The position numbers and the translations under genes are program-made. Shown piece after piece: positions 20,330-62,537 of a stretch of 64,000 bases of DNA. Position 1 is the first letter of the stretch; every line of letters begins with the position of its first letter. The DNA comes from Ischnura elegans (Eukaryota > Arthropoda > Insecta > Odonata > Coenagrionidae): contig NC_060246.1 in the NCBI RefSeq assembly GCF_921293095.1, positions 13,162,001-13,226,000 on the forward strand, given 5' to 3'. The notes beneath the pieces are model-generated. The model was given only the letters and a program-made list of their open reading frames with translations, was not told the DNA's origin and did not search any database.

Positions 20330-20488
20330 TCAGTACACAATGGTTCCCTTCACAGCATCATACCACAGTTCAAAAATTCCATACACTGGTCCTGGGATGT
20401 TTGCCATGGCACGTCCTAAGTCCACACCATTTAAGAAATAGTGAATGCTTCCATCTTCTTTCCGCATCACGCCTAAGCGTTCCCGTGC
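20330..20488 (-). CDS. NHR gene exon 5 (end of NHR domain, stop)
   Basis: The acceptor ATTTGTCCGGCAG ends at 20489 and the exon is entered in phase 0. It reads RERLGVMRKEDGSIHYFLNG and then VDLGRAMANIPGPVYGIFEL, which correspond to the NHR motifs usually seen as GDRVGVM..GTLHFFVNGVDQG and VYAVVDLYG. It ends KGTIVY, then TGA at 20332-20330. The usual VDLYG is altered to FELWYD. Confidence 0.85.
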   Translation of the reverse strand, partial: ARERLGVMRKEDGSIHYFLNGVDLGRAMANIPGPVYGIFELWYDAVKGTIVY

Positions 20489-23400
20489 CTGCCGGACAAA
20501 TATTTTGCAGTACTTAATTCATCTTAATGGAATGAAATTTTTTGAATAGTTAAGAGTTAATGCTGGTAACTTAGGTTCAATTTTTATTACTATTAATTTA
20601 TAGCTCATTTATTTCCTCATTAGTGAGTGAAATGCCATTGCTACTCATTCATCTACCAGTGAGACTTGAAAGTTTGGAATCAACTGATTTGTCTGTATCC
20701 CAAGGAAGAAAATTGTGCTACTTCATTTGAAAAATGTAAGTACATAATCACCTCAGCATTGTATTTAAACGACTGTGTTAACTCCTGGAGTTTCCAAATT
20801 GTGTAGCAATTGAGTTTCTTTGATCACTCAAAATAGGTTTTCATGAAATGATTCTTAACCCATTCCTGCCAGTGCCTACAATAGGAAAACGTTTTCTGTG
20901 CTAGTAATGGCATAAGAATATTTGAAACCTTTCTCTGCGGAGCTCTTTTTAGGGCTGGAGTTACTGTGGTATTTTCGTTCCCCAGATTTGGGACCCAACT
21001 CAATTAAGTGCCTGTCCCTTACCCCGGCCACTGCACTAGACCCTATCGTAGCACAAATCCACGGTCATTTTATTGCATTACCAGGGGTTTTTTAGCCAAA
21101 TATTGCATTTGATTTTCAATAATTTTCTCTTCTATAAGAATTACTAACATTTATTTAAGCATTGTGGAATTTTAACCCTTTTGCTGCTGATGAATAACCG
21201 ATCCCTCACATGTGGCAAAAGTACTGAGCAAATGGCAGGGAGGAGGAAAAAATACGTTCACAGCAGCCTGCTGTGCAAACGTACCAGGTACGTTCACAGC
21301 AGTGAAAGGGTTAAACAGATTTATAGCGTTGATAACAACAAATTTGGTGAATGCAAGGTACTAAGAATAAGTCCACAAGTCTGTTATTTTTAATGCTAAA
21401 ATTTCATTTAAAAATTGCTTGCGCACAGATGAAAAGTGAAGAATTCTTTTCAAAGTATGAAAAAATTGTAGTATGCAACAAAATACAGTAGATTCCGTTT
21501 AATGGGTCCACCGATTACTTGGGGCAGCCGCTTAATTGGGGCAGATCTTGAAGAACAGAACCCAATAGAGGAATATACCACCGTATTCTCCACTTAATTG
21601 GGACAGCATGCCGCTTTATTGGGCCATGTGTCAGCGACGTAGGCTCTATACTCGCGACGAAATCAAAATTTTTTGTTTTCAGAATACTATTTTTTTACAT
21701 TTTCCTCCTTTGATTTACTCTTATTTTTCACAAATTTTCCTATTCTTGCCCTATTTTGAAAGCTCTTGTTATACTATCTGCAAGAGGATAGGACTTTTCT
21801 TTAATAGGACTTAGTAAAAGACATTCAGCATCGCCCGAGGCTGTGAAAAATACTTTTAACTAAATTGTTATAATTCTTAAAAATCATAATAAATTAATTA
21901 AACTTGCTGATTTATTAATCAAATTAATAGTTTAATAAACTTATGTTGCATTATAAACATTCTTTTGTCTTCTTTCTATCATTTAAACGTTTGTTTATGC
22001 CCATATACAGGATAGTTCGCCTAATTGGGGCAGAGTGCAAAAGTCCCGCTATGTCCCAATTAACCGGAATCTACTGTATATCATTGCAAAAACCATTGAC
22101 AATACAACCTCTTTGCAATGAATACCTGCAGTGAGGATGATCACAAATGAGTGGGAGGGTCGGGCTTAATTGCCGAGGAGTGGCCCTAAGGCTGCTAAGC
22201 TGGGTCTCAGGCCGGGACTGAATGCATCTGACAATTGCTACCTCAGCAGTCACTTCCCTTCACTCGCGTCAGCTGGAGCCGCCATCCGGTCGTTTGTGTT
22301 GAAAATGCGGTTATACCTGACGTTAGGTCTTCTGCGCATGAAAATGCCCGTCAACTCCACATGACATTCGGCACAAAAGGGTTAACGAACTTATCCTCAC
22401 ACGCCACCACTGGCTGTAATTCCAAGATCTGAAATTTTTCGGGACTGCTTTGTCCTGCTTTATACTACTTACTATTACCCCATAACTTAGTCAGTCCTCA
22501 GTAGTAGAAAAGTGGTCGAAACAACATCAATATTTAACTGCCAGAATTTTTATTGAGAAAACTGAATATATCTAATCCCAGGTATTCCAGGTTATTGATT
22601 TTCCTCACTTTTTCCAAATAAATGCAAAGCACAAAAAAAGCAATATTTCAACACGGACAGTTCATTGTTAGTATTTTTTCAGTTGAGTTGGCATTGATGT
22701 TGTTTATTTTGAATTGAAAGTGATGAAATAAGTTTGCACGTACCTGTATTTTATTCAAATCTGTACCATACTTTGCCAGCTCCCTTGCAGAACCATAAAT
22801 TGCACTGTTATGGTACACCCATGTTCCATTCCTGTAAGTGCAAGCAAGAATCATTTTCAAAATAAAACGTCATGACTTATTTCAATGAGATGTCTTTCTG
22901 CTTTCAACAAAAATATTTACTAGATGACAAATAAATTTCAAATGCCAAAAAAAAATTGTATTGCATTTGTCACAAAAAATAAAAGGCATTAAAAAGAGAT
23001 TCTTGCTGGTACTCCAACACTTTTATTCTCAAGTTGATCAACTACATGCATACAGGATGGACTCGAGCTAACCTGAGGCACTTGCTATCATTCTAGATTA
23101 GTTTAAAATGCCATTGCAGGCATATTAGATTCAGAAGAAAGAAAGATATTCAGAAATTCACCCGATGCCATGAAAAATTAATGTTTCAGGAATTTTCTCC
23201 ATGCATACATGTTAAACATAAATATTATTTAATAATCAATGCCAAAAATGTAAGATGGTATCTGCCATAACTTTTTGGAATCTAAACTTTGCATACTGGT
23301 ACTGGAATACTCAGGGACTTGTGGAAGTGAACTATATTTTTATTGCTGGTTCAACAAGAATACCAAGATATATTATTTCATGTCAGTAATAATAATTTAT

Positions 23401-26400
23401 TATTAAATAAAAATGATGAAAGCCAAAATAAATGATTCTATTTTGAAACTTAAATCAGTATTGTTTGTTTGTTAGGATGAATGCTACTCTCAATGAATTT
23501 CAAAGCCAAGCTTGTTCAACTAGTCCCATCCACAGGGGATTATAGAAAGGATTCCATGAGTGTAATGAATTACAATCGCCATGGCTCAGACCAAGCCATC
23601 CACACACAAGCTGGCTTTGTAAGGGGAACTGTAAAATTGTTGGAGGCCACTTGAAAGAACAAACTATTGACCAATATGAGCCAATGTATGATGGGTAAAT
23701 GTGATTACCATTATTTCTCCCAATTTTTTACTGCTTGTGATCTTTAATGGTCCATTGAAGTAATCCTATTCTTGTCATTACTTTCCCTAGTGTACAATGG
23801 AAATGCTACTAGCTTACTCTGCATTCAGTTTTCTTGCTTAGATCATCTATGGAGCAATGATTAAGGGCAGATGTTGAGAAATCAGGATCTGAAGAATCTT
23901 GATGAAACTTGCAGAAAAATAACTTGAGTGCATTTGAAACTGCATACATATTGCTACCCCTTGTGACATCTTAATGCTTTCAAGGTGGTGGAGTTCTCGC
24001 CTTAGCATGACTGGTGTACTGAGCCCCAAGAGACTCTTCTGTCCTCTTCGTACAGAGTATTTTTCAGGACATTCGTTAAGGAGAGTCTCACAGATAATCA
24101 CGCACTCTCAGCACCAACCTTTTGCGACCCTTCCTAACGGGGACTCTGCATTATCTCAGGCTCCGTGGGTTGTTGGGCTCCTTCCTTTCGAGGTTTATAA
24201 CTCTGCCAGCAGCATTGGTTCGCAGCATGCTTTGTATATATGAATTAGCTGTATGGATAATTATTGCTTGAACGTAAATTGCTGACGAAGCTCTACGGTC
24301 AATATTAACACATTTAATGCAGCAACAATTTCCATGTTGAAATCGAGATATAAGTTAATATTTCTTGTAGAATTTCATTTAAAAATTGTAAATGATGCTC
24401 GAAAGATGCACAATTGTATGACTGCGGTTCCATACCACTAAGAGGGGTTATATAAGACAAGGGGTCCGGGTACCTGCTCCTGTATTTCAAGGCTGAAGCC
24501 TAAGCCTCGCTGTGTTGGGTCCTGAAACAAAGACATCGCACACCCGTGGCCGTCATAAAAGGGGAGGAGCTAGGAAACAAATATATTCAGCATTCGTTCA
24601 CCTGTGTAGGATAATCTCCAACGAAAATTTGCAGCTTTCGTCTTCTGGGTCAAGAAACGTCCGGATGTACATTTTCATCTTTAGTAGGGAGAGGTTAATA
24701 TCATTGATTTTTCCCTGGTTTGTTGTGGTACATGCAATTGAACCCCTAAAATTAGCTTTTCCCAGATGAGCAGTAAAAACTCACTTGTGCTGATGCATTG
24801 AAGGCAATATTGTGACATCATCTGGAGAGTGGGTCATCACACCGAGGGCAAAGCAATGGTTCTGCTTCACAACCCTCTTGTCCAGCCTCACCTCAAACAG
24901 CTCGCCATCTTTTAACGCCCGATGAGTGAATAGTACTGCATTCAATGTATCATCTAAGCTGGAATAAAATAATTCATTTTTGTCTCGCATTATTGTCATA
25001 GATTTGCCGATGACGAAACCTTTAAAGTTTTCGTCATCACGATTTCGATGCTCAAGTGAATTCATTTTCATTAGCCTTGAATCAGTACCCACGCACATAG
25101 GCGGATCCAGGGGGGGGGCACGGGGACCCTTAAAAATATGCTAGATTTTTAATACGGTCCCATTATCATTTCGTTCATTTTGTATGACGAGGTATCCTTG
25201 TGCCCCCCCCTGAACAAAATCCTGGATACGGCCTTGCTTGTGCCCCTCCCAGAAATAAATCCTGGATCCGCCCCTGCCCACGCAGCACCTTGTCCAATGC
25301 TTTCTGGGTCATATGCCGAGTCGAGATTGTGATATGTCTGTTGGTGCTCAAGAATCAGGTTGAGTTGAATATGAACGTGGCATATGAATAAAGTGCATAT
25401 GAATATGGCAGGAGATTGATGTTTGCACGTGTGCCATTTGGTCATTTGGGAGCCTATCGCCAGCCAGACTCCACAACAATTCAATGCAAAGTGCTGCATG
25501 GAAATTTAGATAAAAATGTTGTTCTGCCCTCCTTCCTCAGAAGAATAAAATTATTGATTTAGCTAAAAGAGTGAATCATAGGGAGATTGACTGCTTCAAT
25601 TGATAAATAGATACCTCCACTACATAAACGCTCTACAATCGCCCACCGAATCAAACCCGCTCATCTAGTAGCCCCTGCAGTACTTTTAGGATTTGATTCA
25701 GCGGGTGATTGTTGAGCGTTTGTGAAGTGGAAATATCTAAATGCTCTCAGGTAAAAAATTTATTTAAACTTTTGAAAGTCTCACTTCATGGAAAGAATCA
25801 TGGATGAATTTCTATCCTTGTGCTTGTAAATATATTTATGCCAACATTTTTGCTCGCTCTTTACTTTTGTGAGGGACATAGCTTGAAGCTTACTCTAACT
25901 TCTGTGCAGAACGGCCATCATTCAGGATAACAGCATTTTTCCCATGTCGAGGGTGAAACTTTAGGCGATCATCTTTCTCAGCCGTGGCTTCTCCACTCCC
26001 ATTTTCAGGCATCTCTGAAATAGAAGAAATTTTAATGAAAATCCATAGTACCTATTTTTTTTAGAGCAATAATTAAGTGCATAATAAAGCCTCCATTTCC
26101 AGAAATATAATTAATCCCTCCGGTGACAATTATGTGCGACTGACTTACTGAATCAATAAAATTTACTTGGATAGTATATCAGTCACCTGAGACTCCTCCA
26201 AAAGAATTTTCCTCCTAATTATTAGGCTTCATGGTTAGTTTGTTTCCCAGTTTCCACTATCTGCAATTGATCTGTAGGTGTTGCTTGATTTGAAAGTGCA
26301 AAAAATTCCTTATCAAAAAATTATATTCCCTTTTGTTTTGGAGGAGGTAGGTCTCCTCCTTGAAGTTGCCATGCATCCCGGTTTTGCTAGGGCAATCCCA

Positions 26401-27918
26401 GGTTAGATCACTTTTGTAGGCGTCTTGTCGGTTTCCACAATTTCTCTACAGTGTCCCGGTTTCATGCAAAAATTATGGGAATTATGTTTTTATAATAACA
26501 GTTTACAACAGAAAGCAAAGCCCAATATGGCGGTAGGAGCTCATAGTTTAGTTTGTCGTTAAGTAGTAAGGGAGGAAAAAATAAAATAAAAGTAACAATA
26601 ATCTTAGTTTTATTTTACAAACTCATTTCCATGGAGTTGCTTTACAAAGTATCATTGGAAGGAGGAGCATAATTGATGCTATGGCTGTTCAATATCTCAG
26701 TAACAGTTTAAGGTAATTAAATAATTGATTGGTATGAACATTGAAGCTAATGGGCTCTCTAATATGGCCAGGTGTCTTGAATTCTTTAAGAGTACAGATA
26801 TTGGCAAGTACTTGTGTACGGACCTGGATGGATGAGGCATCGATGGGTAGTGAATCTTTTATAGAGGCTGTGAAACAGTCATCAAACTGCGAATGATGTG
26901 CAGGGCATTTGGAAGAGGGGTCTTTGCAGAAATGTCTATGGCTGTTGATTTGGATGTTGCGAGGAGTAATGCATTCCCTGATATATAATATAAAAGGCAT
27001 GGCGGAGACTGCTCCAACGTGCAAACAGTCATAATCCCTCACCTCATCCTCTGCCCCAGCCCTCCAACAATCTGTCACCTGATGCGAAAATAAAGTCGAT
27101 AACTCAATGCACATGGCAAAATACAGAACTATGAAATTTTTTACATCTCTGGGTCAAAGTTATCTGAAAAGGGCCAAAGTTCACCGTGGTTAAAGAGTTT
27201 TCTTTCTAATGCATTACATCCGAGTCTGTCACTGGCAATCCCGGTGCGCACAAAAACAACGCTGAGCTTTTGCTTCGACTGTAAAGGTATAGTAGCAGTG
27301 GCGCAGCGAGGGGGGTTTTGGGGGGTTAAAAGCCCCCCTCAGAGCTCAGAGAAATTTTTAACTTTAATCCATTTTACTTACTTGGATTGACATTACTAAT
27401 AGAATAGTGTAAGTGTTAATAAAATAGATAGCCGTAAAACTCACCATTCTGAACCATTCATCTCAAAATTCTGCAATTTATTAAACCTACCGCTTATCCT
27501 GGTGGGTATTCCATACCCCCACACACCCCGGTATTGTTTGCACCTAACCCCCCCCACCAGCCTTAATTCCTAGCTGCACCCCTAGGAAGTACCTTCTACT
27601 GTGCGTGGAAGAGGGCAGTGTCCAGCACCTCGACTCACCTCTGACGATGACGCGCACGTGTGCGGCTGTGCGCCCGCCGCTGCCGCCGCACCCCACGCTC
27701 CCCTGCCACGCCTCCACCTCCAGCCTCCCCTGCTTCCTCCCCTCGACGTCCACCCTCTTGGCCTCCACCGTCCACTCACCCTCGCTGCCCGGACGGCGGT
27801 GGAAAGATACCCAGAATGCATTGTCGCCCGCGCACACTCCGGCCTCCTCCGCCCGCTGCTGCTCCTCGCCTCCAACAATCGCCGAGCACAACAGCAGAAG
27901 AACGAAATGCGCAATCAT
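20330..27918 (-). CDS. Five-exon gene: signal peptide plus a single NHR (Neuralized) domain, 273 aa
   Basis: Joined exons (minus strand): 27918-27639, 26014-25894, 24958-24785, 22831-22744, 20488-20330. Their lengths (280+121+174+88+159) sum to 822 bases and every junction keeps phase with GT/AG ends. Residues 1-17 (MIAHFVLLLLCSAIVGG) look like a signal peptide. A charged, Gly-rich stretch of unknown type follows to about 105, and then an NHR domain runs to the C-terminus (FHPRHGKNAVILNDGRSAQK; THRALKDGELFEVRLDKRV; GVMTHSPDD; GTWVYHNS; YGTDLNKIQ; RLGVMRKEDGSIHYFLNGVD; final KGTIVY). NHR domains are protein-interaction modules, known mainly from cytosolic ubiquitin-ligase proteins (Neuralized, NEURL4) in Notch-ligand traffic. 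No RING or SOCS box is present. Uncertain point: exon 2 has its own ATG (26012-26010), so a cytosolic form without exon 1 coding is also possible. The NHR assignment is strong, the exon 1 join moderate. Confidence 0.7.
21176..21310. mobile_element. piggyBac-type MITE, TTAA target site
   Basis: A 135-bp element flanked by TTAA at 21172-21175 and 21311-21314, with inverted ends CCCTTTTGCTGCTG (left) and CAGCAGTGAAAGGG (right). TTAA plus CCC... termini are the piggyBac signature. Inside, the word TACGTTCACAGCAG occurs twice. It lies in the intron between exons 4 and 5 of the NHR gene. Confidence 0.75.
21486..22076. mobile_element. pogo/Tigger-like MITE, family T2
   Basis: A 591-bp element with inverted ends CAGTAGATTCCGTTTAATGG and ATTAACCGGAATCTACTG, flanked by TA at 21484-21485 and 22077-22078. 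Several subterminal copies of (C/T)TTAATTGGG(G/A)CAG lie at both ends. No transposase. It sits in the last intron of the NHR gene, antisense-neutral. Confidence 0.8.
22744..22831 (-). CDS. NHR gene exon 4
   Basis: On the minus strand CTTGCACTTACAG precedes the exon and GTACGTGC follows it, an excellent donor. The first base completes the Lys codon begun in exon 3, and 29 codons follow: GTWVYHNSAIYGSARELAKY then GTDLNKIQ. This matches the NHR core segment usually written GTWM..G..V..NG......YG.NLD.L. It ends in phase 0. Confidence 0.85.
24785..24958 (-). CDS. NHR gene exon 3
   Basis: The acceptor TTATTTTATTCCAG ends at 24959; the donor AA|GTGAGT is at 24784. The exon reads DDTLNAVLFTHRALKDGELF, EVRLDKRVVKQNHCFALGVM and THSPDDVTILPSMHQH, the most conserved part of NHR (NAIVFS.RPL..GE.FEV.ID......GS...GVTTH.PD). 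Enters with one base and leaves with two, consistent with both neighbours. Confidence 0.88.
25096..25276. mobile_element. hAT-type MITE, family C, perfect 8-bp target duplication
   Basis: A 181-bp element with ends CATAGGCGGATCCAGG and CCTGGATCCGCCCCTG, flanked by the perfect 8-bp repeat CCCACGCA (25088-25095 and 25277-25284). A second internal copy of AATCCTGGAT.CGCC lies just inside the right end. It lies in the intron between exons 2 and 3 of the NHR gene. Confidence 0.8.
25610..25737. mobile_element. Small foldback MITE
   Basis: About 128 bp, nearly a palindrome: ATACCTCCACTACATAAACG at the left matches, inverted, CGTTTGTGAAGTGGAAATAT at the right, and the pairing continues inwards over GCTCTACAATCGCCC / GGGTGATTGTTGAGC and GAATCAAA / TTTGATTC. 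The class is unassigned. It is intronic in the NHR gene. Confidence 0.7.
25894..26014 (-). CDS. NHR gene exon 2 (start of NHR domain)
   Basis: The acceptor CTTCTATTTCAG ends at 26015; the donor TTAGA|GTAAGC is at 25893. After AG comes ATG (26012-26010), a possible alternative start, then PENGSGEATAEKDD and LKFHPRHGKNAVILNDGRSA, the opening of the NHR domain (FHP.HG.NA.....GR.A). It leaves with two bases that combine with the C of exon 3. Confidence 0.85.
26689..27114 (-). other. Unrecognised 141-codon open frame inside NHR-gene intron 1
   Basis: The longest unexplained frame in this intron. It contains several His and Cys residues (e.g. SHRHFCKDPSSKCPAHHSQF) and no domain I know. An acceptor-like CGCATCAG lies within it near 27078, but joining exon 1 there gives a quick stop, so it is not an obvious alternative exon. 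It may be a decayed transposon or retrocopy fragment, or chance. Confidence 0.2.
27296..27584. mobile_element. hAT-type MITE, family B, inverted copy
   Basis: About 289 bp, starting CAGTGGCGCAGCGAGG and ending CTAGCTGCACCCCTA. Read in reverse it matches the element at 41313-41616 almost throughout: GGGGTGCAGCTAGGAATTAA, CAGGATAAGCGG, AATGGTGAGTTTTA and TTTCTCTGA are shared. The 8-bp target duplication is not intact here. It ends only about 55 bases from the exon 1 donor of the NHR gene. Confidence 0.75.
27639..27918 (-). CDS. NHR gene exon 1 (signal peptide and N-terminal region)
   Basis: Start ATG at 27918-27916 has A at -3 and lies 66 bases downstream of a TATA box. MIAHFVLLLLCSAIVGG is a short basic-poor start, a hydrophobic core and small residues before an acidic EEQQ, as in secretory signal peptides. 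Then come AGDNAFWVSFHRRPGSEGEW, beta-strand-like TVEAKRVDVEGRK and LEVEAWQG, and a GCGGSGGR linker. The donor AGAG|GTGAGT follows at 27638, leaving one base that with AG of exon 2 makes a Glu codon. The exon is much more GC-rich than its surroundings. The frame is open further upstream to 28017, but that part runs through the TATA box, so it is unlikely to be translated. Confidence 0.6.
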
Positions 27919-27983: not shown

Positions 27984-27991
27984 CATTTATA
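27984..27991 (-). promoter_or_regulatory. TATA box of the NHR gene
   Basis: On the minus strand TATAAATG in a GC-rich setting (GGTATAAATGCCGCG), 66 bases before the ATG at 27918. A start site about 30 bases downstream, near 27955-27960, would give a short leader; an E-box CACGTG lies at about 27933-27938. Confidence 0.6.
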
Positions 27992-45715: not shown

Positions 45716-48700
45716 CCCTCCGTGACTCGCGCCCTAAATACGAACGTGAGAGCTCGCGTGGGGTGTTTCTGACACCCCACTCGTTTTTTTCGCTTTTTTC
45801 AATTGTTTAATTGTATTTTGCCTTAATTTTTGCTATTTACCTATCCTTTCATAACTCCTGATAATATTTGTTTGTTTGATATGAATAATTGTCGCATAGG
45901 AATATTTTGTTGTAATTTTGTTAATTTTCAAAAGAATTTGAAGTACAAAAGATGGGGACGTTGATACAATTTGTAAACATTCTTACATATTGGCTGTATT
46001 CTAATTAAAGCAATAATAATTTTGTTCACATAAATTAACAAATTGCATTACCTGGCTAAATAATTTTATACGTTACTTCGTTTCAATATTTTATATGAAT
46101 TGAATTTTGATTATTTGATGGAAAAACCGGCCGCGAGTCTTGCGATTTGCCTGCTTTTGAGCTAATGGAAATGATTTGATGATTAGGGTTTTTTACATTT
46201 GTTATAACGATCAAATAGTATTCTAAGTTGTTAATAATGATTCTGAAAAGTATTTTTGAAGAATTTTATCTCAATCACTGGCTCTTTCAAGTGGGAAAAT
46301 TCTGAATAATCTTCTAGTCTATAAATTCCAAATTTGCCTGGGAAATGCTGTATCTTTTCGGAAATCGAGGGTGGACCTGTAGTCTGTTCAAATAAGGTAG
46401 GATGGGTAAGAGATTTGGCATGGATCGAGGGCCCAACGATAACCGCGTACCTGCCGTCAGCCAAAAATTACCCGGGGTCCAGTCGATCACGCTCGATATA
46501 ATGAGTCACGAATCGCACTTTACTCGGAAAAATTATCTCATAAAGTAAGCGTGATATGTAATTTTTTATTATATCTTTGATTTCTACGTGTAATTTCATG
46601 AAGAAAGAGTCTCTATACGACGGAGCTACGTCCATTAGTTATGTAACACTTACATAGCGGTTGCAAAAAAAACCACTAAGTGTGGCATAACTACTTGACA
46701 TAGCTATAAATCCTTTTGTTCTGGCGGTCTCTGTATCCCAGTAAAAGAGAAGTTTGCTCTCCATTCGGCAATTTAAATATGAATTTTTACTTCTCTAAAC
46801 AAGATTTGTCTTCTTTACTTTGTGCATGCAGACGTCACGATAGTTACCACAAAAATTTCCCTGCGAAATCCTCGCTATTATTGATCAATATTCATATGCT
46901 CCTTTGGGATAGTTGCATTTTGATCAACTTTAGATATTATTATGTGTAAAATGAGACAGAAAATATTTACGAATTGTAGCAAGTTGGTATAGCCTCAGTT
47001 GACATTTGGAAGGGCTGATGAAAGACAGGAAAAAATCATTTACACGAATTCCTTCATGAAACTATTTTTTAATATTTTCCAAGCACTCACTACATACTTT
47101 CAACATGTGCGATGCACACATATTCCTTTCACAAATTTCACAAAACAATTTAGTTTTTATGTCTTTGGCTCTGGGGCAAATTACACACCTTCCACTTCCT
47201 CTTCTCCGCTTTTCCTGTGGCTCCGATATTGATGGCTCTCCGTATTTCTCTAAGGTTTTCCTAAATTCTTTTGGCAAATTTTTTTGTGTACTTCTCTGGG
47301 CAATAAAAGGTTTTGTTAAGCCTTTAGCAATTTCTCGGAGGAATGTTCTTCTATTTGTCTTAATTTCAGGATGTAAGTTCCTGAAAATAACGAACGCATT
47401 GATGCCCAATGTATTCATCAAATGATAAAAAACCACCATAGGCCATCTCTTTGTGTTTCTGGCACCACTATAGGTAGCGCACATTTCATCTACCGTATCT
47501 ACACCACCTTTCGTAGAGTTGTAAAAGGATATCATTTCCGGTTTTTTTTTCTCACCTGTGGTCAGATCAATGCTAATATCGCTGTGTATACTCGAAATCA
47601 TGAGGACGTTTTTCTTCTTTTTAAGAATATATGACACAAGAGTCATATTTTTCCTGAAGAGAAAAATGCTACTATACTCATCTCTATTTTTGACAAAAAC
47701 AATTTCAGGGGGAAGCTCTGCCTTATTCTTCCTAATGGTCCCCACAATAGTAAGTTTTCTTAGAAGTAGATCTTCCAAAAGTGGCACATACATGAACCAA
47801 TTGTCCACTGTAATGTTCCTCCCCGTTCCCAAAATTGGACTGACAATCCTTTTTACAACCTCCTTTGGGCTGTTGTCTACTCTAAAAGGACCATCTGGCT
47901 GAATACCTAGGTAAACCTCCATTTTTTGCGTGTAATACACAGTAGCATCTACAAGTGCAAATATTTTTATGCCGTACTTTGCGGGTTTATTTGGTAAATA
48001 TTGGCGGAAAGAACATCTACCCCGAAAAGGAACTAATTGCTCATCTACTGTAGCAAACTCACCGATGTTGTACAATTGTTCAAATTTACGGATAAACATT
48101 TCAAATACCTTTCTTATCGGAGCCAATTTATCAGTTTTTCTCCTATTTTCTCTGTCTCTGATGTCATCAATTCTTAGACATTGAAGCAGCAATTTAAACC
48201 TCTGGTAATTCATTGATGCCCTAAATATCTCCACACCCAAACCATCTTGATCTCACATATCTTTCAAGTTCTGGCGACCTGATTTGTTTGCCCCTAAATA
48301 AAAAAGCAGACCAATGAGACAGCAGACCAATGGCTTAGCATCTCTTTCTTGAGAATAATTTTGCGCCTTTTCCGCAAGTTTGATATTTGTACTATTTACA
48401 ATTATGTGACAGATGTTCTCATCAAAAATTATGTCAAAACAATCTAGCGGAGAATTTATATCATTCTTATTTCCCTTGAAGCCAGCTGCCTGAGATACAA
48501 TGTTATGAACTGGTGTTCGAACATTACGTCGTGGCTCAGAGGTACTCCATTTTGTCACTCGATCTTTGCCCGTTAAAAAATTATCGTTAGTCACAGTTGT
48601 ATACTCAGTCTCTGAATCACTGATGTCCTGATCGCTACATGTGTCGTGCTCCGATTCCTGTGCTGAAGCTGAAGAGAATTCAGTGTCTGAATCAAATTCT

Positions 48701-49409
48701 TCCTCTTCGGATAGTCCACTGGAAAGCAGAAGAGCAGTTTCTATGTCCCTCTCTGATCGTAAATAGGTCATCTAAGGGAAAATATAGTTTATATAAGTTT
48801 CTGAATGATTTTCAGTGATTCCTAAAATTTAAATTTTTCATTTATCAGAAATTGAAAATGACATGAACTTACCTCGAGGTCTCTAGAGAATTTCTAGGCT
48901 TCCCACTAGCAATCACTTCTAAGAGAAAAAAGTTATACGAATTTTGGGATGAAATTCTTCCCTAAAATGGAAAAATAAAAGAAATATTGCGTATAGTCTC
49001 CTTTGAAATAATGAAGTAACGAAAAATAATGGTGAAATAAGCGTTGAAAATTTATAAAACGTAATGAAGCATTAGGTATCGAAATAATGATTGTAAAAAT
49101 AAGATAAATTTTATAATTGTAAGTGAAAAGACTCACCAAATAAAAGAACGAAGTATACTTCGCGGCAGTATTTCTTCTATTCTAAACCAACACTCGAAAA
49201 TTTCGCTCCGACGGGATGCGCACTGTCTTCACAAAAGCGTCTGATCTCGGCCGAAAACGGAAAGAAACTAACCAATTTTCCAGGACAGCTAGGAAATATC
49301 CCTAAACTCAGCTACTGAAAAGATGAGACCATAAAACTAGACCCGAAACGAACTCTAACCAAAACAAGACGCTGGGGTGCCTGGGACACCCCGCGCGAGT
49401 CACGGCGGG
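45716..49409 (-). mobile_element. piggyBac transposon 1, complete ends, TTAA target duplication
   Basis: A 3694-bp element flanked by TTAA at 45712-45715 and 49410-49413. Ends: CCCTCCGTGACTCGCG (left) and CGCGAGTCACGGCGGG (right), inverted with one mismatch. About 45 bases inside the left end and 20 inside the right are small hairpins, GGGGTGTTTCTGACACCCC and GGGGTGCCTGGGACACCCC. The transposase gene (48771-47062) occupies the right half. 45716-47061 is AT-rich and non-coding, probably trailer sequence. Confidence 0.93.
47062..48771 (-). pseudogene. piggyBac transposase, full length, one in-frame TGA
   Basis: DDE-type transposase that excises and inserts the element at TTAA without footprints. 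The frame spans 569 codons from ATG 48771 to the stop at 47062, the usual piggyBac length (about 560-600), interrupted only by TGA at 48255-48253 (codon 173) where relatives usually have Trp. Acidic N-terminus (SGLSEEEEFDSDTEF), then the core. The three catalytic Asp stand in TVDEQLVPFRGR (about residue 243), ITVDNWFMYVPL (about 323) and KGGVDTVDEMC (about 425). The C-terminus holds the Cys-rich zinc domain (CVICPRAKDIKTKLFCEICE, then C-x2-H and C-x2-C). Nothing else is broken, so the copy is young or recently silenced. It lies antisense in an intron of the candidate plus-strand gene. Confidence 0.93.
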
Positions 49410-59889: not shown

Positions 59890-62537
59890 CACGTTGCGTA
59901 CGGATGGCGAGAATTCTCGTCATATTTTTCCCGAACGTTCCGGATGGATGACGAAGATTCTCATCATTTAGGCACGTCAACCAAAACAATTTTAAAGCGT
60001 ACAATACATATTCGTTAGTACGTTTTCAGTTGTTGTTCGTTATTCATAATGAATTGATTCATCATACCGTTTGATTGGGTAAAGTTATATTCTTAAGTTA
60101 TATTCTATACCATGTTTAAACCAAAGGCATTACGCCCGAATAGGCACATATTTCCATTCTCAACACCTCCACCCAGAATCGGCGTTCCTCTTCTTACCAG
60201 CGTTGGCATCTTATTTATCTTTTTCCTTGAGTAATCCCACACACTTGGCTCATTATTTCCAAAGAGTTTATCCAAATGGCCTTGTTTTATCTAGCGAGTT
60301 TGACCCTTATCTTCATCGCTGCTTCTTCGAGATGCACTCTCAGCAAGTGGACTGCTCTGCTCCGTCAACATAAACATTCTAGACAAAAGGAACTGGGGGA
60401 CTCACAATGAAACCCCCAGTTCTTTTCGTCCATGCTATGGAGGGAAATGATGCTCTCTTACTTGTTTCTTGCCTCTGGGTTAGTTTCCTCTCCCAATGTG
60501 TCTAGAGCAGTTGGTGTTTCCCCGAGTCCCAGTGAATAGTGCATTTGGAGTCAAGTTTTTCTCGCTTGAAGGTTTGCTCGCATTTGTGCTCTAAAAACCA
60601 CTCAAGAATATTCCATATTATGGCATCACATCGGAGGGACAGCACTTTGAATGAAGAAGAAATTTTGTTAGACTTGTGTGATGATGATTTGTCAGATGTA
60701 CCATTAGGGTATGACGAATATAACGACGAAAGTGAAAGCGATTCTGATGTTGTGGTGAATATGAAAACTAGAAAACCTATTCCTCTAGTTATCAGTGAAA
60801 GTGACTCCGATGCGAGTGAAAATGAAGACAATGCTTTGGCAGGAAGTTCTACTTCATGGGAAAAAATAGATTTTGAGAGGCATTTAGTGCAATTTTTGGG
60901 CCAACCTGGAGTGAGGCAATTACCAGAAAATTCCACTAATATCCTTGACGTAGTCTCATTATTTCTTGGTTATGATTTTTTTGAAATGATGTGCCATCAA
61001 TCCAATTTGTATTACTGTCAAAATAAGCATAAATACAAAGAATCGCCAAAAACAGGGAAGTGGTCAAACATAACCATGGCTGAAATGAAAAAATTCTTTT
61101 CTATTTTGATTCTGATGGGTCAAGTGAGGAACTGATGTGTTGAAGTATTGGAGTACAGATCCTTTCATCGAAACAAAAATATTTAGAGAGCTACTGACGC
61201 GAAACAGATTTGAGCAGATATGGAAAACGTGGCATTTTAGTGATAACGAAGCATTCTTAGATACTTCGGATAGACTACATTAAATAAGACCCACCGTAGA
61301 ATACTTCGTTGAAAATTTTCAAAATGTGTATAAGCCAAAGCAGGTATTGTCACTTGATGAAGCCATGATTCCATGGAGAGGAAGATTGAAAATCAAGATC
61401 TATAAATCCTGCAATATATCCTGCAAAAATTGTAAAATATGGGTTACTAGTTCGAATGGTTTGTGAAAGTGATTCTGGCTACATTAGTAATTTACAAATT
61501 TATTCAGCTGAGGGGAAAAAATTAGAACAAACCATCTTGTCTCTTTTGAAGCCACATCTCAATCTTTGGCATCATGTCTATCAAGACAACTATTATAATA
61601 GTGTGAAAATTGCAGAACTGCTCTTAGATAACAAAGTAAGAGTGTGTGGAACCATAAGACCAAATCGGGGACTGCCTCCCGCGTTGAAGAGCGAGGCAAA
61701 AACTTTGAAAAAGGGACAGAACACATTCTCTCGTAAAGGTGAGGTGTTACTAGTGGTTTGGAAAGACAAGGGGGAAGTAAGAATGATTAGCACTCTTCAT
61801 AACGCCAGCATGGGTAACTCAAAGGTAAAAGATTGGGTTACAGGACAGGCAATCAAAAAATCCACTTGTATTCTAAAATACAATGAGTACATGAAAGGTG
61901 TTGACAGGGCGGATATGTACTCATCCTATTACTCCATCATGAGAAAAACAATGAAATGGTCAAAGAAAGTCGTGCTGTGGCTAATAAATTGCGCTCTTTT
62001 TAATGCTTTCAGATTTTATAAAACTCTAGACAAAAATAATGGCATTCGATTCAAAGGCTTTTTGCTCCAGACCGCCAAAGAGTGGGCAGCAAGTAGGCAG
62101 GAGTCGAGCGGATCATCCTCGGACGTTGACTGCGATAATAAGCCAACAGGGCGGGCCCCTTCAAGAGATCACCCACATTGCTTATCAAGAGACCTTAGCA
62201 AACACCATCTCGTTCCTATTGTGGGGAAGGGGACGAAAAAATATCACACGAGAAGATGCAAAATGTGCGCCACGAGAAAAATTAGAAAAGAAACAGGGTA
62301 TGTGTGATCAACTTGCGGCATTCCACTCCACAAGGGAAAATGTTGCATGAAGTATCACACCAGAAAGAGATTCTGAAATTATTTAAGAGTATTACATTCA
62401 AAATTGCATGAAAAAATTTTAATTTTTAAATAAGTTATGGCATTTTTTCAAATGGAATGTTTGCTCAGTGAGTGATGTTTAAAAAACCGCCGGAACAGAG
62501 GGTTAAAAGGAATTTCAATACCCCAGTACGCAACGTG
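59890..62537 (+). mobile_element. piggyBac transposon 2, TTAA target duplication
   Basis: A 2648-bp element between TTAA at 59886-59889 and 62538-62541, with ends CACGTTGCGTACGG and CCAGTACGCAACGTG (12-bp perfect inverted repeat). The left subterminal region has two related dyads, GGCGAGAATTCTCGTC (about 59904-59919) and GATGACGAAGATTCTCATCA (about 59946-59965), possible transposase sites. Ends and transposase are unlike element 1, so this is a separate family. Confidence 0.9.
60620..62307 (+). pseudogene. piggyBac transposase 2 (PGBD4-like), frameshifted
   Basis: Start MASHRRDSTLNEEEILLDL at 60620, acidic N-terminus, then MTIMAE-like core KWSNITMAEMKKFFSILILM. Damage: frameshift near 61130-61145, in-frame TAA at about 61281, and a further frameshift near 61400-61440 where a short ATCCTGCA repeat appears to be duplicated. 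Catalytic Asp motifs remain visible in three pieces: VLSLDEAMIPWRGR (about 61350), HVYQDNYYNS (about 61575) and YMKGVDRADMYSSYYSIMRK (about 61890). The last piece is open for 283 codons and ends with a Cys-poor version of the C-terminal finger (RRCKMCATRKIRKET). Length and motif order fit vertebrate-like PGBD4 transposases better than element 1. Confidence 0.9.

Follow-up and report, generated by a model that had tools for sequence, protein, structure and literature searches.

A candidate family of secreted single-NHR proteins in the damselfly Ischnura elegans

Introduction

NHR domains are described as modules of the cytosol that take part in ubiquitin ligation, endocytosis and centrosome control. 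A gene located in the window, i.e., the complete stretch of 64,000 nucleotides of the damselfly Ischnura elegans that was analysed, was previously proposed to encode an NHR behind a signal peptide. This raises the question of whether the exon with the hydrophobic start and the exons that encode the NHR are really parts of one gene and, if so, how this domain could have come to be exported. The explanation favoured here, to which as a whole we assign a probability of approximately 0.9, is that the window gene belongs to a large damselfly family of secreted single-NHR proteins.

Structure of the window gene

The gene is composed of five exons, whose positions are given in Table 1. When these exons are assembled from the DNA, the coding sequence has 822 nt, that is, 273 codons and a stop codon, with no internal stops, and the four introns all show GT/AG borders with phases 1, 2, 2 and 0. 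This agrees exactly with the five-exon, 273-codon model with matching phases that had been put forward in the preliminary description of this DNA.

Table 1. Features of the NHR gene and of the window that contains it (exon and TATA box positions are those of the window).
Feature	Position	Strand	Remarks
Window	C1:13162001-13226000		chromosome 1 of Ischnura elegans
Exon 1	27639..27918	minus	predicted signal peptide (approx. residues 1-17) and N-terminal domain of approx. 70 residues; phase-1 donor
Conserved cysteines of exon 1	C29, C77		in the N-terminal domain of approx. 70 residues
Exon 2	25894..26014	minus	linker and start of the NHR; phase-1 acceptor, phase-2 donor
In-frame ATG of exon 2	26012-26010		exon 2 also contains one NGS sequon
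Exon 3	24785..24958	minus	NHR core; phase 2/2
Exon 4	22744..22831	minus	NHR; phase 2/0; NGT sequon
Exon 5	20330..20488	minus	end of the NHR and stop codon
TATA box TATAAATG	27984..27991	minus	start 73 nt before the ATG

When the protein was compared with Pfam at E values up to 10, Neuralized (PF07177) was the sole family detected, and neither a RING nor a SOCS box was found. The match (E 1.7e-23; residues 113-262) covers positions 1-138 of the 149 of the profile and is therefore nearly complete; its score of 83.6 bits, against a curated cut-off of 23.3, places the domain in the NHR family. The NHR extends almost to the end of the protein, and the earlier claim of one NHR at the C-terminus, unaccompanied by RING or SOCS box, was thus borne out. 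A search of solved chains at E values up to 1 gave a sole match, 2e63 (E 2.9e-16; molecule KIAA1787), which we take to be human NEURL4. In terms of the known classes, the window protein lacks the C-terminal RING of the Neuralized-type ubiquitin ligases and the SOCS box of the NEURL2/Ozz-type adaptors, and it has one NHR instead of the several of NEURL4. It does show the characters that define the damselfly signal-peptide NHR family as delimited here, i.e., a homologous exon 1, two cysteines, a phase-1 junction and an NHR encoded by four exons.

Association of exon 1 with NHR exons

The searched genome comprises 1,722,721,009 bases in 110 contigs. The search for the NHR family gave 116 exon-level matches, many of them clustered, and at C8:104.15-104.26, C11:83.68-83.75 and C10:56.58 Mb (chromosome number and position) a relative of exon 1, with a signal-like start and a phase-1 donor, precedes NHR exons of the same layout. 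The alignment of ten exon-1 sequences, including that of the window, revealed the invariant columns M1, G47, W49, A53 and C77 (window numbering). Four exon-1 proteins from paralogues, together with the window protein, were used as queries for homology searches, which detected 64 distinct exon-1-like places at E values up to 1; some exons 1 had first been picked with a hydropathy filter, and these were found by the homology searches too.

A same-strand NHR exon is present downstream within 25 kb at 49 of these 64 places, whereas random placement, calculated with guessed lengths for chromosomes 4 and 7, expects 0.097; two of the 49 matches use one common NHR partner. At E values up to 0.01 the proportion is 41/45, and 36/40 when the five query loci are removed. 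The 49 paired places form 19 groups that are separated by more than 200 kb or lie on separate chromosomes; therefore, they do not derive from a single tandem event. Among 19 short loci, 18 had an ATG with a hydrophobic start, together with a phase-1 donor in the homologous position, and none of these was seen in the remaining one (L046).

For this count the separate lists of matches were combined, and the matches were assigned to exon types manually. The NHR matches at C8:59.19-59.24, C3:79.05 and C1:20.09, presumed to represent other gene types, were left out, as were the matches of exon-2 and exon-4 type, two weak matches on chromosome 15 and one at C9:106.80. The 15 exon-1-like places with no NHR match in 25 kb (four of the 45 at E up to 0.01) correspond to seven at C10:21.7-21.9, three at C9:76.1 and five scattered ones. 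Conversely, an upstream exon-1 match is absent for 11 of the 62 exon-5-type and nine of the 54 exon-3-type NHR matches, which may represent other gene types or genes whose exon 1 escaped detection. At 9/64 places, an opposite-strand NHR exon occurs downstream at a distance of up to 25 kb, because the clusters run in both directions.

Several loci depart from the common layout. The region C10:21724562-21855668 contains seven exon-1-like signal-peptide exons with zero NHR matches within 25 kb, one of them followed by a weak exon-2-like stretch (E 0.15); possibly, these exons mark a subfamily whose NHR has changed strongly. At C9:76.18 and C12:74.66 nothing was detected past exon 1 in the 8 and 4 kb inspected, respectively. 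The exon 1 at C11:83741303-83741581 carries two in-frame TGA codons and is likely a pseudogene member of the family. Downstream of the gene designated C8B there are two lone extra copies of exon 5 (C8:104184289-104184447 and 104187458-104187538, the second one partial), which suggests partial tandem duplications.

Complete paralogues and selection on exon 1

From 17 loci inspected, nine complete models were obtained, that of the window included, all of them with five exons, phases 1, 2, 2 and 0, and zero internal stops. Regarding the other eight, C8A and C11_1 are cut at the edge of the DNA segment inspected, and for C8D, C8E, C8G, C10 and the genes in L053 and L054 some exons were either not found or not assembled. 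Exon 2 begins behind a phase-1 acceptor in the nine complete models, and in six of them, including the closest paralogue, located on chromosome 12, it has no methionine ahead of the NHR; therefore, translation cannot begin there. With this closest paralogue (C12:47938832-47947347), the window gene shows 46% identity over exon 1 and 68% over exons 2-5.

Comparisons of recent paralogues show that purifying selection acts on exon 1: six pairs gave dN/dS values of 0.02-0.11 for its mature part, in a comparison that involves few changes and in which five of the pairs come from four chromosome 11 genes. At longer distances the window gene is less informative, since exon 1 is saturated in the comparison with the chromosome 12 paralogue, and the values of 0.66 and 0.29 obtained for mature exon 1 against C8C and C8F, respectively, are accompanied by dS values above 1.2, too distant to say much. 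The distances calculated from mature exon 1 and from exon 3 are correlated among 13 genes (r 0.91, p 0.0001) and also among nine non-redundant ones (r 0.76, p 0.0004); therefore, both parts of the gene have been inherited together. The median identity among the 13 genes is 27% for mature exon 1 and 48% for exon 3.

The pairing with NHR exons, the common phase-1 junction, the purifying selection and this co-divergence all support the assumption on which the preliminary description made its interpretation depend, namely that exon 1 belongs to the gene. Taken with the intact models, they also led us to reject the idea of exon 1 as a chance open reading frame or as an exon of some other gene.

Predicted secretion and the N-terminal domain

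The signal-like character of exon 1 was evaluated with a home-made rule, rather than with SignalP, that looks for a hydrophobic core, an uncharged run and small residues at positions -3 and -1. The rule was satisfied by 29 of 30 exon-1 starts, including that of the window, versus 9 of 79 open reading frames of the window, a control set in which those of the window gene were left in. The 30 sequences are the modelled subset of the 64 and do not include L046 (no model), C11:83741303 (two stops) or the exons at C10:21812781 and C12:74664182. In the window protein the hydrophobic segment spans residues 1-17 and is followed by acceptable cleavage sites according to the same rule, in line with the signal-like start reported before. 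Past this segment, the window protein has no additional 19-residue stretch over the hydropathy threshold used.

At least two cysteines are present past residue 18 in all 30 exon-1 sequences; in L042 the second conserved cysteine is substituted. Sequons for N-glycosylation are also frequent in these exons, with 41 observed versus a mean of 23.4 in shuffled sequences and none of 2000 shuffles reaching 41, a figure obtained from kin sequences that are not independent; in 17/30 a sequon is located in the loop ahead of the G-x-W motif. Nevertheless, sequons are weak evidence, because a NEURL4-like repeat, presumed cytosolic, likewise has NGT, and because the window's exon 1 has none; the window protein has one in exon 2 and another in exon 4.

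When the N-terminal domain of 11 members was compared with Pfam at E values up to 1, weak matches only were obtained, the best with an E of 0.078 for one member, and the window's domain gave none. The best match among solved chains (E 0.96) is not credible. The alternation of hydrophobic residues, judged by eye, suggests that this domain could be formed by beta strands.

Origin of the NHR exons

The number and likeness of the many NHR matches that lie on one strand at C8:59.19-59.24 Mb led us to presume that this locus is NEURL4. One of its repeats, L001, includes exons of 100, 177 and 91 nt; the first is entered in phase 1, and the three end in phases 2, 2 and 0, respectively. By reading of the sequences, the two introns that separate these exons and the one that follows them interrupt the NHR at the same residues, in the same phases, as the window gene's introns 2, 3 and 4. 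In L001 the entry intron is of phase 1 and is located just before the NHR, as in the window gene, with a linker of variable length. The places and phases of introns expected from descent of the family from a NEURL4-type repeat were thus found for the three introns inside the NHR of L001. Over exons 3-4, L001 is 40% identical to the window gene and reaches at most 52% with other members, and two stretches at C3:79.05 Mb, the presumed Neuralized locus, match the family more weakly than L001 does. Because L001 has the same introns in its NHR as well as a phase-1 entry intron, a NEURL4-type cassette was probably joined to a signal-peptide exon through this entry intron by exon shuffling, a direction that we infer from the exon structures.

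Not all repeats of the presumed NEURL4 seem to be divided into exons in the same way: at C8:59.21-59.22 Mb the part equivalent to exons 2 and 3 is split in L001 and forms one continuous open reading frame in L002.

Proposed explanation and alternatives

According to the favoured explanation, the NHR exons of a NEURL4-like gene would have been joined to a signal-peptide exon via a phase-1 intron, and the fused gene would then have multiplied, largely in tandem. The signal peptide would direct the window protein into the ER and would be removed afterwards, leaving an N-terminal domain of approx. 70 residues, probably rich in beta strands and with one disulphide, followed by a single C-terminal NHR. 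That the window protein enters the ER or is secreted appears highly probable. Outside the cell the NHR would bind a partner instead of acting in ubiquitin ligation, and the N-terminal domain would serve as another module. Because a RING, a SOCS box or other catalytic, ubiquitin-linked or effector part was not found, the NHR is most likely a binding module and not a component of ubiquitin ligation; a binding role of this domain in the extracellular space seems somewhat more plausible than not.

A broader proposal, which we advance tentatively, is that some fifty proteins, encoded in tandem clusters, may constitute a diversifying family for extracellular recognition that arose via shuffling of NEURL4 exons and in which the NHR would be the variable binding module, its genomic behaviour being perhaps comparable to that of immune or reproductive recognition families. 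The multiplication and the wide divergence of these genes fit a recognition role, although purifying selection dominates among the recent copies.

Other explanations place the NHR in the cytosol, entirely or in part. Exon 1 could be part of a different or dead gene, with a cytosolic NHR protein starting at the in-frame ATG with which exon 2 of the window gene opens. Such a start is lacking in six of the nine models, including the chromosome 12 paralogue, exon 2 lies behind a phase-1 acceptor in every one of the nine, and exon 1 is both paired with NHR exons at 49/64 places and conserved by selection between recent paralogues, so that this possibility is extremely improbable. The same ATG, and the methionine codons situated slightly deeper in exon 2 of C8B and C8C, could instead serve to produce a cytosolic NHR in addition to the secreted form that begins in exon 1. 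The existence of two products is quite unlikely, being impossible for those six models.

A different objection concerns the fate of the hydrophobic start, given that the rule used does not distinguish a cleaved signal from an anchor: the segment could remain uncleaved, or the protein could be retained in the ER, and in either case the NHR would be luminal or bound to the surface rather than free. We regard this as unlikely, considering that the hydrophobic stretch is short and precedes acceptable cleavage sites, that a second 19-residue stretch over the threshold is absent, and that the C-terminus, GTIVY, is not known as a retention motif. The window copy could also be a relic without expression, in a family that has expanded and that includes at least one probably broken member, the copy at C11:83741303 with two TGA codons in its exon 1. 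The window copy is open over its 822 nt and has all eight splice sites as well as a well-placed TATA box, which makes this very unlikely. The favoured explanation, a family of secreted single-NHR proteins, accommodates the pairing, the intron phases and the selection on exon 1.

Relation to known NHR proteins and significance

Neuralized and NEURL1 are ubiquitin ligases that contain NHR plus RING, NEURL2/Ozz combines NHR with a SOCS box, and NEURL4 is a multi-NHR adaptor. The window protein shares the NHR with Neuralized and NEURL1, and differs from them in having no RING, one NHR and a predicted signal peptide; like NEURL2/Ozz it possesses a single NHR, in its case without a SOCS box and with a signal peptide. 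NEURL4 is similar in that it provides the sole matching solved chain, 2e63, and that the L001 repeat of the presumed NEURL4 locus has the same NHR introns and phase-1 entry. On the other hand, NEURL4 has several NHRs, in contrast with the one NHR, the signal-peptide exon and the new N-terminal domain of the window protein. Ohanin/vespryn are secreted SPRY proteins, in which an intracellular binding domain gained a signal peptide; they offer a precedent for an intracellular domain turned secreted, in this case from another domain family (SPRY, not NHR).

No report of a secreted NHR family was recognised among the open-licence papers searched. An abstract on NEURL4 describes six NHR repeats (PMC4565672); a study of the locust midgut has a Neuralized-domain entry in a domain table that belongs to its part on differential expression (PMC10484617); a work on butterfly heads gives NEURL4 as female-biased (PMC10521528); and an Aplysia figure legend (PMC9334734) was also consulted.

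A large family that exports the NHR would represent a new setting for this domain, with an origin that can still be read in the phase-1 intron beside the NEURL4-type cassette. As a duplicated and diverged family, presumably secreted, in an early-branching winged insect, it could have a function in immunity, digestion or reproduction.

Other features of the window

The TATA box upstream of exon 1 was confirmed at the distance described before, with 66 bases separating TATAAAT from the ATG. Among 12 family members examined, a TATAWA motif was detected within 300 nt upstream in five and was absent in the other seven, including the closest paralogue; this box was therefore rejected as a hallmark of the family.

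Between 33035 and 35177, on the plus strand, there are consecutive open reading frames that by eye resemble the remnant of a LINE reverse transcriptase; two of them gave no match in Pfam at E 0.01. The window also contains two transposase copies, both of the piggyBac type by reading. The copy on the minus strand comprises 47065-48252, which matches DDE_Tnp_1_7 with an E of 4.1e-61, and 48256-48771, which alone gives no match; the copy on the plus strand, split over two open reading frames (60536-61132 and 61390-62304), matches the same family with E values of 3.4e-37 and 5.5e-8.
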